DNA from: Synechococcus sp. BO 8801
GTDB taxonomy: Bacteria; Cyanobacteriota; Cyanobacteriia; PCC-6307; Cyanobiaceae
Length of the DNA stretch: 64,000 bases
Assembly (NCBI RefSeq): GCF_002252675.1
Contig: NZ_NQKY01000001.1
Location: forward strand, 141,315 to 205,314
Direction: 5' to 3'
In this document: positions 5,853 through 10,663 of the stretch, piece by piece
Numbering within the stretch: position 1 is the stretch's first letter
Layout of the letters: each line of letters opens with the position of its first letter
The notes under the pieces: generated by a model
The model's database searches: none
What the model saw: the letters and a program-made list of their open reading frames with translations, nothing else
What the model was told of the DNA's origin: nothing
Translations under genes and position numbers: made by a program

Positions 5853-6575
5853 TCAGCAGGGTTCCAGCACGCAGTTGATCTTCAGCTCGAAGGGCACGGC
5901 GCTGGCGGGCAGTCGCAGCAGCTGGGCGGTGAGGGCGGCCAGGTCCTCGGGCTGGGTCATGGCGTCGGCGGGCAGGGCCGTCACCTGGGAGGCCATGGCG
6001 GTGTTGACCCAGCCCGGGCAGATCGCCGTCACCCGGATCCCGGCGTCCCAGCCCTCGTTGCGCATCGACTGGCAGAGGGCCATCAGGGCGAACTTGCTGC
6101 AGGGATAGGCCGCCAGGGAACCCTTCACCCGCTGGCCGCTCATCGACACCAGGGTGATCACCCGGCCGTCGCCGCTGGCCACCAGCGCCGGCCAGGCGGC
6201 CCGGGTGAGCCACCAGGGACCCATCAGATTGACGCGCCACAGGTCTTCGATCTCCCCTTCGCCGCCCGGCGCGAACAGCAGGCCCAGCCGGGAGAAAAGA
6301 CCGGCGCAGTGGATCACCCCGTCGATCGCGCCGAAGTGGGCCAGCGTCGCCGCCACCCAGGCCGTTGCCTGGCCGGGGTCGCGGGCGTCGTAGGGATGCA
6401 CCACCACCCGGTGGCCCCCCTGGCGGGCGGCCTCCCGCAGCGGGCCCTCCGCCAGGGCGGCGGGATCGCGCAGGCCGAGGCTGAGCCGATGCCCCTCGGC
6501 CAGGGCCCGTTCTGCGATCGCCCGGCCGATACCCCGGCTGGCGCCGCTGATCAGCAGGGTGCGGGTCTGCTCCAT
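5853..6575 (-). CDS. Short-chain dehydrogenase/reductase
   Basis: Classical SDR of 240 residues from the ATG at 6575; the upstream frame to 6713 is proline-rich and not SDR-like. The cofactor motif GASRGIG is at residues 11-17, and the catalytic residues are S144, Y157 and K161 (YPCSK). PGWVNTAMA follows in the usual place. The substrate cannot be deduced. It converges on hemN with six bases between the stops and lies downstream of the PII gene, from which it is separated by a terminator, so it is probably transcribed alone. Confidence 0.85.
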   Translation of the reverse strand: MEQTRTLLISGASRGIGRAIAERALAEGHRLSLGLRDPAALAEGPLREAARQGGHRVVVHPYDARDPGQATAWVAATLAHFGAIDGVIHCAGLFSRLGLLFAPGGEGEIEDLWRVNLMGPWWLTRAAWPALVASGDGRVITLVSMSGQRVKGSLAAYPCSKFALMALCQSMRNEGWDAGIRVTAICPGWVNTAMASQVTALPADAMTQPEDLAALTAQLLRLPASAVPFELKINCVLEPC

Positions 6576-6711
6576 GGCCGGCGACGGCGGCGGCGGGTCC
6601 GGAAATCCTGGCGGATGGCCGGGGCGGGGGCCTGCGGGACGGCTGCGGGAGACGGACTGGAGCCCCACAGAGGTCCGCCGGGATCCCATCAGGAGTCCGT
6701 CAGGTGCCGAC

Positions 6712-6742
6712 AAAAAAGGAGCTGACCGTGATGGCCAGCTCC
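6712..6742 (-). terminator. Intrinsic terminator downstream of the PII gene
   Basis: Read on the minus strand, GGAGCTG and CAGCTCC form a seven-base-pair stem with an 11-base loop followed by six T residues. It lies about 40 bases after the PII stop codon and should end the amt-PII transcript. Confidence 0.85.
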
Positions 6743-6783
6743 GGGTGGTGAACGGTGGACGCGCCGGTGTCTGCAGCCGCTGC

Positions 6784-7122
6784 TCAGAGGGTGGATTCGC
6801 CGGATTCGCCGGTGCGGATCCGGATCACCGATTCGACCGGGGTGACGAAGAGCTTGCCGTCGCCGATCTCACCGGTGTGGGCGGCTTGGGTGATGGCGGC
6901 GATCGCCGCGTCCAGCTTGGCGGTGGGAACGACGATCTCGATCCTTGCCTTGGGCAGGAACTCGACGGTGAACTCCGTTCCCCTGTAGCGCTCGACCTGG
7001 CCTTTCTGGCGACCGAATCCACGGGAGTCGGTGACCGTCATGCCGATGATGTCAAGGGCGACGAGGGCAGTCTTGATGGCATCCACCTTGGAGGGGCGGA
7101 CCATGGCCGTGATCATTTTCAT
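6784..7122 (-). CDS. glnB: PII nitrogen-regulatory protein, variant T-loop
   Basis: 112-residue PII signal protein that senses 2-oxoglutarate and ATP/ADP and controls transporters and enzymes by contact. RGFGRQKGQVERYRG, the B-loop TGEIGDGK and C-terminal RIRTGE are intact. Relative to the usual cyanobacterial GlnB, the T-loop residue S49 (phosphorylated in PCC 7942) is Thr49 and Y51 is Phe51. It is encoded 14 bases downstream of an ammonium transporter, the arrangement typical of GlnK, so it probably gates that transporter. A second, canonical GlnB elsewhere in the genome is likely but not visible here. Confidence 0.92.
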   Translation of the reverse strand: MKMITAMVRPSKVDAIKTALVALDIIGMTVTDSRGFGRQKGQVERYRGTEFTVEFLPKARIEIVVPTAKLDAAIAAITQAAHTGEIGDGKLFVTPVESVIRIRTGESGESTL

Positions 7123-7136
7123 GGAAGGTTTGGTCG

Positions 7137-8546
7137 TCAGTTGGTCATTGGATCGTACGCCTCTTCCCCGTGAGCCACGAAGTCGAGACCGCGCTCTTCC
7201 TCTTCAGGGCTGACGCGGAGTGGCATCAGGGCCCCGAGAATCCAGAGAATAATAGCCGTGCCGAGAGCGACAAATCCATAGGTGAGGATAACGGCTTTGA
7301 ACTGGGCGATGAACAGGCCGAAATTTCCTGATTCCTCAAGGATCTTGGCCGACAAGGGGAAGTAATCCGCAGGCACAAGCGCCTTGGAGGCAAGAATTCC
7401 GGTCAGCAGAGCGCCCACGGTCCCGCCCACTCCGTGGACCATGAAGGTGTCAAGGGAATCGTCGAACTGGATGGCGGCCTTCACCCTGACGGCAATGAAG
7501 CAGACCACCGCCGTGACGATGCCGATCAGGAGCGATTGCTCCATGTACACAAACCCTGCCGCCGGGGTGATGCCCACCAGGCCGGCAACGGCACCGGTGG
7601 CTGCTCCAACGGCCGTGGGTTTGCCGTCCTTGAACCATTCGATCAGGCACCAGGTGAGCAGGGCGGCCGAGGCGGAGGTGGTGGTGGTGAGGAAGGGATA
7701 CCCTGCCGTCTTGGAGGCGAACATGCTGGCTCCGTTGAAACCGAACCAGCCGAACCACAGCAGGCCTGCCCCCAGCAGGATGAAGGGCACGTTGTGGGGC
7801 GGGCGTTTGCTGTTGGGCCAGGTGGTGCGGGGGCCGATGATGGCCGCGGCCACGAGAGCCGCCACGCCGGAAGCGATGTGGACCACGGTGCCACCGGCGA
7901 AATCGATGGCGCCGATCGATCCGAACGGACCGATGAAACCGCCGCCCCAGACCATCTTGGCCATGGGGGAATAGATCAGCAGGCTCCAGATCAGGCAGAA
8001 CCAGAACCACGCCTTGAAGCTGACCCGCTCCACCAGGGCGCCTGAGATCAGGGCCGGCGTGATGATCGCGAACATGCCCTGGAACAGGGCGAAGGAGGTG
8101 GCACTGATCGGGAAGCCTGCCGCCAGGGGCTGGTCGCCGAGTTCACCGCCGACGCCATGCAGGAACATCGATCCCAGGCCACCGATGAAGGGGCTGCCGA
8201 AGCCGACGTCGAAGGCCAGGCTGTAGCCGATCACCACCCAGAGGACGCCGATGAGCCCCATCAGGAAGAAGCTCATCATCATGCAGTTCAGCACGTTCTT
8301 GGGCCGCGTGAAGCCGCCGTAGAAGAAGGCCAGGCCAGGGGTCATCAGCAGGACCAGGGCCGAACCGACCAGCATCAGGAGGGTGTCGGCCCCATCGGTG
8401 GGAGCCATGGCCAGGGCCGCCTTGGCCGAGCCGGCGAGCAGTGGACCGATGCCGGCCCCCACCGCCAGCAGAAAGAAGGCGATTTTCCTTAGCCGTTGAT
8501 CCTGAAGCCCAGCCAGAAAGCGGACGCGAAAGCGATCGAAGGTCAT
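7137..8546 (-). CDS. amtB: Ammonium transporter (Amt family)
   Basis: Inner-membrane ammonium channel, 469 residues from the ATG at 8546. The N-terminus is a basic stretch followed by a hydrophobic segment ending GSAKA, consistent with the cleaved signal peptide of cyanobacterial Amt1. Eleven hydrophobic segments follow, with family motifs such as FFYGGFTRPKNVLN, DFAGGTVVHI, WFGWFGFNG and the pore histidine motif DTFMVHGVGG. An alternative ATG lies at 8588. The downstream PII gene suggests post-translational gating. A GTN10AC motif and an inverted repeat upstream hint at nitrogen-responsive control. Confidence 0.93.
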   Translation of the reverse strand: MTFDRFRVRFLAGLQDQRLRKIAFFLLAVGAGIGPLLAGSAKAALAMAPTDGADTLLMLVGSALVLLMTPGLAFFYGGFTRPKNVLNCMMMSFFLMGLIGVLWVVIGYSLAFDVGFGSPFIGGLGSMFLHGVGGELGDQPLAAGFPISATSFALFQGMFAIITPALISGALVERVSFKAWFWFCLIWSLLIYSPMAKMVWGGGFIGPFGSIGAIDFAGGTVVHIASGVAALVAAAIIGPRTTWPNSKRPPHNVPFILLGAGLLWFGWFGFNGASMFASKTAGYPFLTTTTSASAALLTWCLIEWFKDGKPTAVGAATGAVAGLVGITPAAGFVYMEQSLLIGIVTAVVCFIAVRVKAAIQFDDSLDTFMVHGVGGTVGALLTGILASKALVPADYFPLSAKILEESGNFGLFIAQFKAVILTYGFVALGTAIILWILGALMPLRVSPEEEERGLDFVAHGEEAYDPMTN

Positions 8547-8598
8547 CAATGCGGATGACGTCGATGCACCAGTCGGTGATCCATGCATCGGGAAAGGG

Positions 8599-8629
8599 GG
8601 GTGAACCTTGGGAAAGGCAAATTTCACCC
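8599..8629 (-). promoter_or_regulatory. Inverted repeat in the amt leader
   Basis: GGGTGAA at 8599-8605 and TTCACCC at 8623-8629 are perfectly complementary over seven bases with a 17-base spacer, about 53 bases upstream of the chosen amt start. It could be an operator or a leader hairpin. Confidence 0.35.
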
Positions 8630-8653
8630 TCAGCGCTGGGGAAGGATGGTTGT

Positions 8654-8667
8654 GTAGCCAAACGAAC
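8654..8667. promoter_or_regulatory. Possible NtcA-binding site upstream of amt
   Basis: The 14-base sequence GTAGCCAAACGAAC matches the minimal NtcA rule GT-N10-AC, and one half matches the GTA of GTA-N8-TAC. It is about 110 bases upstream of the amt start. No convincing TAN3T -10 element was found at the expected distance, so this is tentative. Confidence 0.35.
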
Positions 8668-8697
8668 AAACAGGCCCTCCGGCCAGTGAACGGTCAC

Positions 8698-8722
8698 AAA
8701 AAAGCCGGGGCAGTGCCCCGGC
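8698..8722 (-). terminator. Intrinsic terminator of cpcB
   Basis: On the minus strand GCCGGGGC-ACT-GCCCCGGC forms an eight-base-pair GC stem with a three-base loop, followed by six T residues. It starts 26 bases after the cpcB stop codon, showing that the cpcB transcript ends here with no cpcA behind it. Confidence 0.92.
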
Positions 8723-8747
8723 GGGATGGTCGCGGCGGACGCTCAGA

Positions 8748-9266
8748 TCAGGCGACGGCGGCGGCGGCGCGATCGAAGTAGGTGCCCACTTCCGACATCA
8801 GGGCGGAGCAGTCGCCGGGGGTGATGCCGTTGCGATCATTGGCGATCGCGATGGCGGCGTCCTTCATCTTGCGGATGCCTTCGGCCACGGAGGCACCGGG
8901 CACGCCGAGGGCCAGGTAGGTCTCGCGCAGGCCGTTGAGGCAGCGATCCTCAAGCACGGAGGCATCGCCGGTGAAGATCGCGTAGGTGACATAGCGCAGA
9001 ACGATCTCCATGTCGCGCAGGCAGGCGGCCATGCGGCGGTGCGTGTAGGCGTTGCCGCCGGGGGCGATCAGGGCGGGTTGCTGGTCGAAGAGGTCGCGGG
9101 CGGCGTTGGTGACGATCTTGGAGGCGTTCGAGGTGATGCGGTTGACCGTGTCCATCCGCTTGTTGCTCTCGGCCACCATGGCGCCCAGGGCATCGATCTG
9201 GCCGGGGCTGAGGAATTCGCCGCGGGCGTCGGCCTGGGCGACGAGCTTGGTGAAGGCGTCGAACAT
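8748..9266 (-). CDS. cpcB: C-phycocyanin beta subunit, orphan copy
   Basis: 172-residue beta phycocyanin, a light-harvesting subunit of the phycobilisome rod. Both bilin-attachment cysteines are present: C82 in [10 protein letters not shown] and the C-terminal one (about C153) in [11 protein letters not shown]72, normally methylated, is conserved, but residue 76, usually Asn, is His (NAYTHRR). The sequence is otherwise very close to CpcB. A cpcA alpha gene normally follows within about 100 bases; here a strong terminator and then amt follow. It is therefore a stand-alone extra copy or a relocated gene. Its partner alpha subunit would have to come from elsewhere in the genome. Confidence 0.93.
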
Positions 9267-9382
9267 GGGGGCTGCTTGGAAGCGTGGATGTGAACTTTAG
9301 ATTCGCCGGCCGGGGTTGTGCGAGGTCCCGAAGCCAGCTCCCCTGGCAGCTTGACTAGGGTGATTGGCCCCAAAGCCTCTGC

Positions 9383-10663
9383 ATGGCCGGCCCCGCAAGC
9401 ATGCCTCCCGAGCCGATGGACTGGGGCGCGCTGGCCCTGGCCGCCGGGCCGGCGCCGAGCGATCCGACCGCAGGTCCCACCAGCCCCCAGGCCCGGTTGC
9501 GGCTGTTCGGTCGCCCGGAGTCTGAGGTCCGGGTCACGCTGTACCGCGACCACCACGCCTGGTGCCCCTACTGCCAGAAGGTCTGGCTGTGGCTGGAGGA
9601 GAAACAGGTTCCCCATCGCACCAGCAAGGTGACGATGTTCTGCTACGGGCGGAAGGAGCCCTGGTACACCGAGCGGGTCCCCAGCGGCATGCTGCCGGCC
9701 CTCGAGCTCGATGGTCGTCTGATCACCGAGAGCGACCGCATCCTCGAGGCCCTCGAGGAGAGCTTCGGCCCCCTGGGGCCGGCGATGCACTCGTCCGTGG
9801 CCCTGCCGCTGCGCCAGCTTGAGCGTCAGCTGTTCCGGGCCTGGTGCCAATGGCTCTGCGTCCCGGCCCGGGGGCCCGCCGATGAGGCCCGGGGCCGGGA
9901 GGGCTTCGATCGCTGGGCCGAACGGTTCGCGAGCGCCCTCGAGGCCGAGCCAGGACCGTTTCTGGTCGGGGAGCTGGGCACGGTGGACCTGATCTTCGTG
10001 CCCTACGTCGAGCGCATGAACGCCAGCCTGGCTTACTACAAGGGCTACCTGCTGCGGGAGCGCCATCCCGCCATCGATCGCTGGTTCCGGGCTCTCGAGG
10101 AGCGCTCCACCTACCTCGGTACCCAGAGCGACTTCCACACCCACGCCCACGACCTGCCTCCCCAGATGGGAGGGTGTTACGCCAGCGGCAGCGGCGAGCA
10201 GCGGAATCTCGCCGACCGCATCGACGCCGGCCCCTGGCCGATCGTGGCCCCACCCGGGTCCGATCCCGAGACCAGCCAGGGCGAGCCGGCCGACGCGGCC
10301 TCCGTGGCCCTGGCCCGGGTGCTCCGGCACCGTGGGCCCCTGCTGGCGCGCAATCCGCTCGGATCCGATGGCTTCGACCGACCGTTGCGCTGTGCCCTCA
10401 CCCGGCTGATCACCGGCCAGGATTGCCCGCCTCCCCCCGGGTCGGCCCGTGGCCTGCGCTACCTGAGGGATCGCATCAGCGTGCCCAGGGACATGCCGCT
10501 GCACGCGGCCCGCCTGCTGCGCCGCTCCCTGGAGGCCACGGCCCGTCTCGATCCGGCCGCTCCCTCGGCGGCGGGGGAGCCGATCCCGGTGCAGCATCGC
10601 CGCGACCAGGATCCGTCCCCCTTTCTTGCCGCCGCGAGCCGGCCCCTCGGCACCGCCCCCTAG
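9383..10663 (+). CDS. Glutathione S-transferase family protein
   Basis: 426-residue protein with an N-terminal thioredoxin-like GST domain carrying CPYC (AWCPYCQKVWLWLEE, about residues 59-73), the SGMLPALELDGRLITES cofactor loop, and an alpha-helical C-terminal domain (LVGELGTVDLIFVPYVERM). This CPYC-bearing class is known from cyanobacteria and plants as omega-like or thioltransferase-type GST. The last 150 or so residues are a low-conservation extension. Alternative ATGs at 9401 and 9416 are possible. Substrate unknown. It stands alone, divergent from cpcB and followed by the DUF2808 gene. Confidence 0.8.
   Translation: MAGPASMPPEPMDWGALALAAGPAPSDPTAGPTSPQARLRLFGRPESEVRVTLYRDHHAWCPYCQKVWLWLEEKQVPHRTSKVTMFCYGRKEPWYTERVPSGMLPALELDGRLITESDRILEALEESFGPLGPAMHSSVALPLRQLERQLFRAWCQWLCVPARGPADEARGREGFDRWAERFASALEAEPGPFLVGELGTVDLIFVPYVERMNASLAYYKGYLLRERHPAIDRWFRALEERSTYLGTQSDFHTHAHDLPPQMGGCYASGSGEQRNLADRIDAGPWPIVAPPGSDPETSQGEPADAASVALARVLRHRGPLLARNPLGSDGFDRPLRCALTRLITGQDCPPPPGSARGLRYLRDRISVPRDMPLHAARLLRRSLEATARLDPAAPSAAGEPIPVQHRRDQDPSPFLAAASRPLGTAP

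Follow-up and report, generated by a model that had tools for sequence, protein, structure and literature searches.

A solitary cpcB gene between amt and a GST gene

We looked at a stretch of 64,000 nucleotides from Synechococcus sp. BO 8801 (the window), in which a solitary cpcB gene lies on the reverse strand at 8748-9266. Its open reading frame starts with ATG, is intact with zero internal stops and encodes a protein of 172 aa. This protein scores 325.5 bits against NCBIfam TIGR01339 (cutoff 279.3), which places it among the C-phycocyanin beta subunits, and its closest solved structure is the C-phycocyanin beta chain 4h0m_B. Asn72 is present, as are Cys82 and Cys153, which we take to be the bilin attachment sites of CpcB in this numbering. 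On the upstream side stands a divergent glutathione S-transferase-like (GST) gene (9383-10663, forward strand). Directly downstream no cpcA was found; amt follows instead, an ammonium transporter gene forming a separate unit (7137-8669, reverse strand), whose true start is uncertain, with ATG candidates at 8588 and 8546. Next to it is a gene for a PII family protein (6784-7122, reverse strand). The first-pass annotation had described a cpcB without cpcA and with a terminator close behind it, and this was borne out, the predicted terminator starting about 25 nt past the stop codon.

Elsewhere in the genome assembly we found two tandem cpcBA operons, both on contig C43, each with cpcB followed by cpcA. 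The two cpcA protein sequences are identical, and no cpcA beyond them was detected in the assembly at E <= 1e-35. Since there are two other cpcB genes, each with its cpcA, the lone copy is not the only cpcB serving as main phycocyanin, an outcome that the first-pass annotation had allowed for. Lone CpcB resembles the products of these operons in protein family, bilin cysteines and His76, and is 92% identical to the CpcB encoded by the genome's own cpcBA. In contrast, the lone gene comes without cpcA and without a Shine-Dalgarno-like leader, lies on another contig, and has a different upstream region and a terminator of its own. His at residue 76 had been proposed as the mark of a special subunit, but both cpcBA copies of the window genome, and hence its main CpcB, carry it as well, as do 43 of the 61 cpcBA rows examined across the family.

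Distribution of the lone gene in the family

We classified cpcB copies in related genomes, a copy being accepted when the match extended over 140 residues at 60% identity, a filter that leaves fragments with fewer than 140 matched residues outside. Matches were obtained in 34 of 40 genomes in one search and in 151 of 300 in another, and 68 genomes were fetched, some matches per genome remaining unfetched. A true lone cpcB was present in 49 of the 68 family genomes fetched and classified; as these were picked mostly for multiple or high-identity copies, the ratio is no family frequency. The other 19 had no true lone copy in the fetched DNA. Identical coding sequences of one class within one genome were counted once. 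Loci L001-L040 and L139-L158 were left out of the classification, and 78 named loci lie outside the counts, four of which served as tree outgroups; L121 among them could not be translated. Two apparent lone copies at contig ends (L051 and L195) were removed from the lone set, and one cpcBA row that also adjoins a GST gene (G163) was kept as cpcBA.

All 49 lone copies have 172 codons and an ATG start, and Cys82, Cys153 and Asn72 are invariant in them. A GST gene stands next to 33 of the 49; that of G227 is the same gene as adjoins the window copy. In G214 and G226, which belong to one genus, the upstream match is to the window ORF that comes after GST, and in one other genus no GST match was found beside the lone gene. 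Lone copies occur in 15 of the 22 genomes positive for cpeB (E <= 1e-70) and in 34 of the 46 negative ones. A link to the absence of phycoerythrin was rejected in this non-random sample (Fisher p 0.77).

Flanking signals of the lone gene

Upstream of cpcB, the window carries a candidate promoter, CTCGC ... TAAAGT with the latter -10-like (9294-9324, reverse strand), which matches the motif CTCGC-N16-21-TANNNT. Within 130 nt upstream, this motif was found in 42 of 49 lone copies and in none of the 61 cpcBA rows, with a shuffled mean of 0.3 of 49 and a maximum of 4; these counts are post hoc, CTCGCA having been taken from the genus alignment and later loosened to CTCGC, so that definition and counting used one set of sequences, with the shuffles and the cpcBA rows as the only controls. 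The stricter first form, CTCGCA, occurred in 15 of 33 GST-linked rows and in none of the 18 remaining apparent lone rows. The looser motif is missing from seven lone copies, those of G205, G157, G215, G047, G297, G226 and G214, four of which belong to the five that look converted (see below). The leader differs too: the last 18 nt before the ATG contain a Shine-Dalgarno-like sequence in 48 of 61 cpcBA rows and in none of the 49 true lone copies. We infer that 9294-9324 functions as a promoter. A regulon based on the strict form CTCGC-N17-20-CTAAAGT was rejected, as this form matched once in the genome versus twice for a reversed control pattern, and looser forms were deemed too degenerate for a genome-wide search.

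Downstream, the predicted intrinsic terminator (8698-8722, reverse strand) has the form GCCGGGGC-ACT-GCCCCGGC followed by T6, with a stem of 8 G-C pairs and a loop of 3 (8722-8704) and the T6 at 8703-8698. For the window alone the statistics are weak (2 terminators found in 6500-9600 versus 1.7 in shuffles; fold z-score -0.99). Across the genus, a perfect stem and T-run within 60 nt after the stop was found in 16 of 17 lone copies versus a shuffled mean of 0.05 of 17, and the stems vary in sequence with pairing kept by compensating changes. Judged from these alignments, the terminator behind lone cpcB is conserved in the genus far beyond chance. Outside the genus the same rule retrieved 3 of 32 other lone copies and none of the 61 cpcBA rows. 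Since it is rare in other lone copies, the predicted terminator is a feature of the window genus and not of the whole family.

Selection, phylogeny and signs of gene conversion

Lone cpcB is under purifying selection. Most differences between the lone and cpcBA copies of one genome are silent, and dN/dS between these copies, a pairwise and not a branch-specific estimate, was 0.05-0.26 wherever above zero, with the exception of G227 (0.38-0.47). A phylogenetic comparison with canonical CpcB, proposed in the first-pass annotation, placed the lone copies of the window genus in a clade of their own (14 rows, SH-aLRT 98) in a quick tree with 46 of 89 inner branches weak. When the 14 lone proteins were compared with 10 cpcBA-type rows (one cut at a contig end) from 9 of the same genomes, seven fixed differences were found, at positions 8, 20, 21, 29, 40, 155 and 160, mostly conservative. 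Of the 15 phycoerythrin-bearing genomes with a lone copy, 11 also had a fetched cpcBA, and in each of these 11 the two proteins were only 84-94% identical.

A different pattern was seen in five genomes (G157, G101, G047, G214 and G226), where the lone coding sequence is almost the same as that of the genome's own cpcBA (pS 0-0.04) and more distant from the nearest other lone copy (pS 0.116-0.285). In the three of these whose flanks were compared (G157, G101 and G226), the upstream region is unlike that of cpcBA, and so is the DNA from about 10 nt past the stop onwards. Coding sequences that are nearly identical between different flanks point to gene conversion, and the simplest reading is that the local cpcBA has overwritten the lone coding part and left the flanks in place; alternatively, a recent re-duplication may have landed in the same spot. 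By the same pS comparison no conversion of this kind was seen in the window genome, where the lone gene is at pS 0.35 from its own cpcBA and 0.13 from the nearest lone copy. The grouping of all 33 GST-linked lone copies as a single protein clade was rejected (p 0.0001) when an AU test was applied to the quick tree, as would be expected from local conversion of coding sequences. A single origin of these copies would thus rest on their shared place and upstream motif, not on the protein tree.

The neighbouring nitrogen genes

The first-pass annotation had connected the lone gene with nitrogen through amt and PII, and in most fetched members of the genus the three genes are indeed adjacent and on the same strand, as might be expected if lone cpcB were nitrogen-responsive and controlled together with them. 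However, the predicted terminator separates cpcB from amt in 16 of 17 genus members. Beyond it, before amt, lies an NtcA-like box, GTTCGTTTGGCTAC (8654-8667, reverse strand), which stands 22 nt before GAGGGT (8626-8631). The NtcA site pattern is given as GTAN8/9TAC in the passage of PMC5767323 that concerns it. All 17 genus members have a box of the form GTN9TAC in the stretch from the terminator to amt (shuffled mean 0.76, maximum 4), although only 1 of the 17 boxes has A as the third base of its first half-site; 22 nt beyond the box a -10-like hexamer was found in 17 of 17, the allowed -10 pattern being loose. In the 160 nt upstream of cpcB the box was found in none of the 17, a result that chance also gives (expectation 0.28), so that lone cpcB of the genus lacks the upstream GTAN8TAC-type site of an NtcA-controlled gene. 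Nor are the neighbours constant: amt is short or displaced in several relatives that retain lone cpcB, the PII match is on the opposite strand in 8 of 49, and 24 of 49 have no match to the window Amt or PII protein within 3 kb of fetched DNA, a search that misses distant or unfetched genes. NblA is the phycobilisome-degradation factor of nitrogen starvation; it was found in none of 16 genus genomes by a search that retrieved it in 6 of 8 genomes belonging to other families. We therefore regard joint nitrogen control of cpcB, amt and PII as highly improbable. A nitrogen-sparing composition was likewise rejected, as side-chain nitrogen (58.1 versus 59.7 per protein) and sulphur (10.0 versus 9.7) show no meaningful difference between lone and cpcBA-encoded CpcB.

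At four loci (L057, L197, L200 and L132) amt beside the lone gene yields only short or fragmentary matches, cpcB is intact and PII is 590-779 nt from cpcB. From these short matches and the closeness of PII, amt seems to be reduced there while cpcB stays intact.

What the lone gene may be for

Alpha and beta subunits are present in a 1:1 ratio in phycobilisome rods; one would therefore not expect a separately controlled gene for beta alone to be kept so widely. One explanation is that lone CpcB is a beta subunit of specialised structure that takes up a definite position within the phycobilisome, such as a basal or terminal hexamer. The separate clade with its seven fixed differences in the genus speaks for this, as do several phycoerythrin strains in which the lone copy carries His76 and clusters with other lone copies while the cpcBA type has Ser76, which looks as if the rod set had been replaced around the lone gene; the 6-16% difference between lone and rod proteins in the 11 phycoerythrin genomes keeps the explanation in play. 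On the other hand, in five genomes the lone coding sequence is almost the same as that of the local cpcBA, the seven substitutions seem to be conservative and leave the chromophore sites unchanged, and in the window genome His76 is common to both types. We consider such a subunit unlikely, although deserving of some weight. The near-identity in five genomes also speaks against a diverged photoreceptor or sensor outside light harvesting, and both bilin sites are conserved; the solitary gene without an alpha partner of its own and with its own upstream region would suit such a role, and an AplA-like function is among the ideas put forward by Six et al. 2007 (PMC2246261) where they discuss the extra gene, yet we hold it to be very improbable. 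It is also improbable that the gene is a redundant duplication relic that serves no particular function. The window genome does have two other cpcB copies, and loss may be tolerated, judging from the 19 of 68 genomes without a true lone copy in fetched DNA. But a relic would hardly be 172 codons long in 49 of 49 cases, under purifying selection, with a shared upstream motif and a genus-wide terminator; no broken copy of at least 140 matched residues was seen among the genome loci, shorter pieces occurring only at contig ends.

Since the extra cpcB is real, is flanked by signals of its own and is retained by selection, some specialisation of its expression is likely. To this extent the first-pass idea of a specialised beta subunit stood, and its supports in His76 and in the amt/PII nitrogen link fell away. 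What we observe is an intact gene under purifying selection, with separate flanking signals and near-identity to the local cpcBA in five genomes. The reading that we favour, and hold to be about evenly poised between right and wrong, is that lone cpcB is an independently transcribed and separately regulated second source of ordinary phycocyanin beta; it is favoured because most lineages share the separate upstream region and not a distinct protein. Lone CpcB, keeping both bilin cysteines, would probably pair with the CpcA that the two cpcBA operons supply and so enter the phycobilisome rods. The gene would be retained for its separate expression, from its own promoter region, with a leader that is not Shine-Dalgarno-like and, in the genus, its terminator; this expression would probably be weaker than that of cpcBA, and the cell could in this way adjust the supply of beta independently of alpha.

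The lower level is weakly suggested by two features of the coding sequence that hint at smaller amounts than cpcBA: silent change is faster in the lone gene (mean pS 0.27 versus 0.143 for cpcBA in the same 9 genomes), and its third-position GC is higher (0.88-0.94 in 8 of 9, with G183 at 0.83, versus 0.81-0.84), the latter argument being weak since the neighbouring genes in the window span 0.82-0.92. Two findings stand against the second-source reading, namely that the lone proteins of the genus are not identical to those of cpcBA, with their own clade and fixed differences, and that the two types are only 84-94% identical in the 11 phycoerythrin genomes. More tentatively, and with somewhat less than even confidence, we suggest that the lone gene is a regulatory duplicate, in which selection would keep the promoter and leader while in several lineages conversion would keep the coding part interchangeable with the local cpcBA. 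If so, the cell would have an alpha-independent beta supply, and much of the picocyanobacterial family would have a step, in the assembly or turnover of phycobilisomes, that involves beta alone. The distribution, the motif and the near-identity to cpcBA pose a clean genetic question, whether it is the protein or the promoter that is needed.

Relation to published solitary cpcB genes

The existence of a lone cpcB has been in print since 2007, and the window genome adds a member. In the part of their paper devoted to it, Six et al. 2007 (PMC2246261) describe an additional cpcB outside the rod region, with no additional cpcA, in WH5701 and RS9917, almost identical to the other copies in RS9917 and divergent in WH5701; there they propose a possible functional change or an AplA-like role and leave the question open. 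The window gene has the same arrangement, outside the rod region, without an extra cpcA and with two cpcBA elsewhere, and theirs likewise accompanies two identical cpcBA operons. In contrast to that account, which concerns two blue-green strains without phycoerythrin, lone copies were found here also in 15 of 22 phycoerythrin-bearing fetched genomes, with a shared upstream motif and a terminator in the genus. In a table of Druce et al. 2023 (PMC10161378), taking its columns in the order that appears intended, five new freshwater Synechococcus drafts have one CpcB more than CpcA, as expected from a lone cpcB, and the text around this surplus gives no locus, neighbours or regulation. Among the main texts searched, the relevant part of Six et al. 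2007 was the only direct description found. New here are the presence in 49 of the 68 genomes fetched, whether or not they have phycoerythrin, the purifying selection, the non-Shine-Dalgarno leader, the shared upstream motif and the signs of gene conversion in five genomes.

Other phycocyanin loci in the fetched genomes

Five genomes with a lone cpcB had no cpcA at E <= 1e-35 (G004, G011, G149, G177 and G204); in G149, tandem repeats lost in assembly are a likely explanation. The single-contig genome G226 carries six near-identical tandem cpcBA operons (L235, C1:529202-547402). Further divergent cpcBA operons, with CpcB about 78% identical to the lone copy, were seen at L043:15040, L044:4206, L045:15605 and L048:752, and in G008, G017 and G022 they lie about 8-10 kb from lone cpcB. 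Near cpcBA in phycoerythrin-bearing genomes we also observed an ORF distantly resembling phycobiliproteins, part of which aligns with CpcB at about 28-34% identity (L168:2195, L172:5248, L198:2168, L184:1189 and L212:1083). Finally, L123 (CALPNT020000008.1), a short locus among the 78 outside the counts, carries a cyanobacterial cpcB in a record titled as a Bifidobacterium breve MAG, so the title or the bin of this record is probably wrong.
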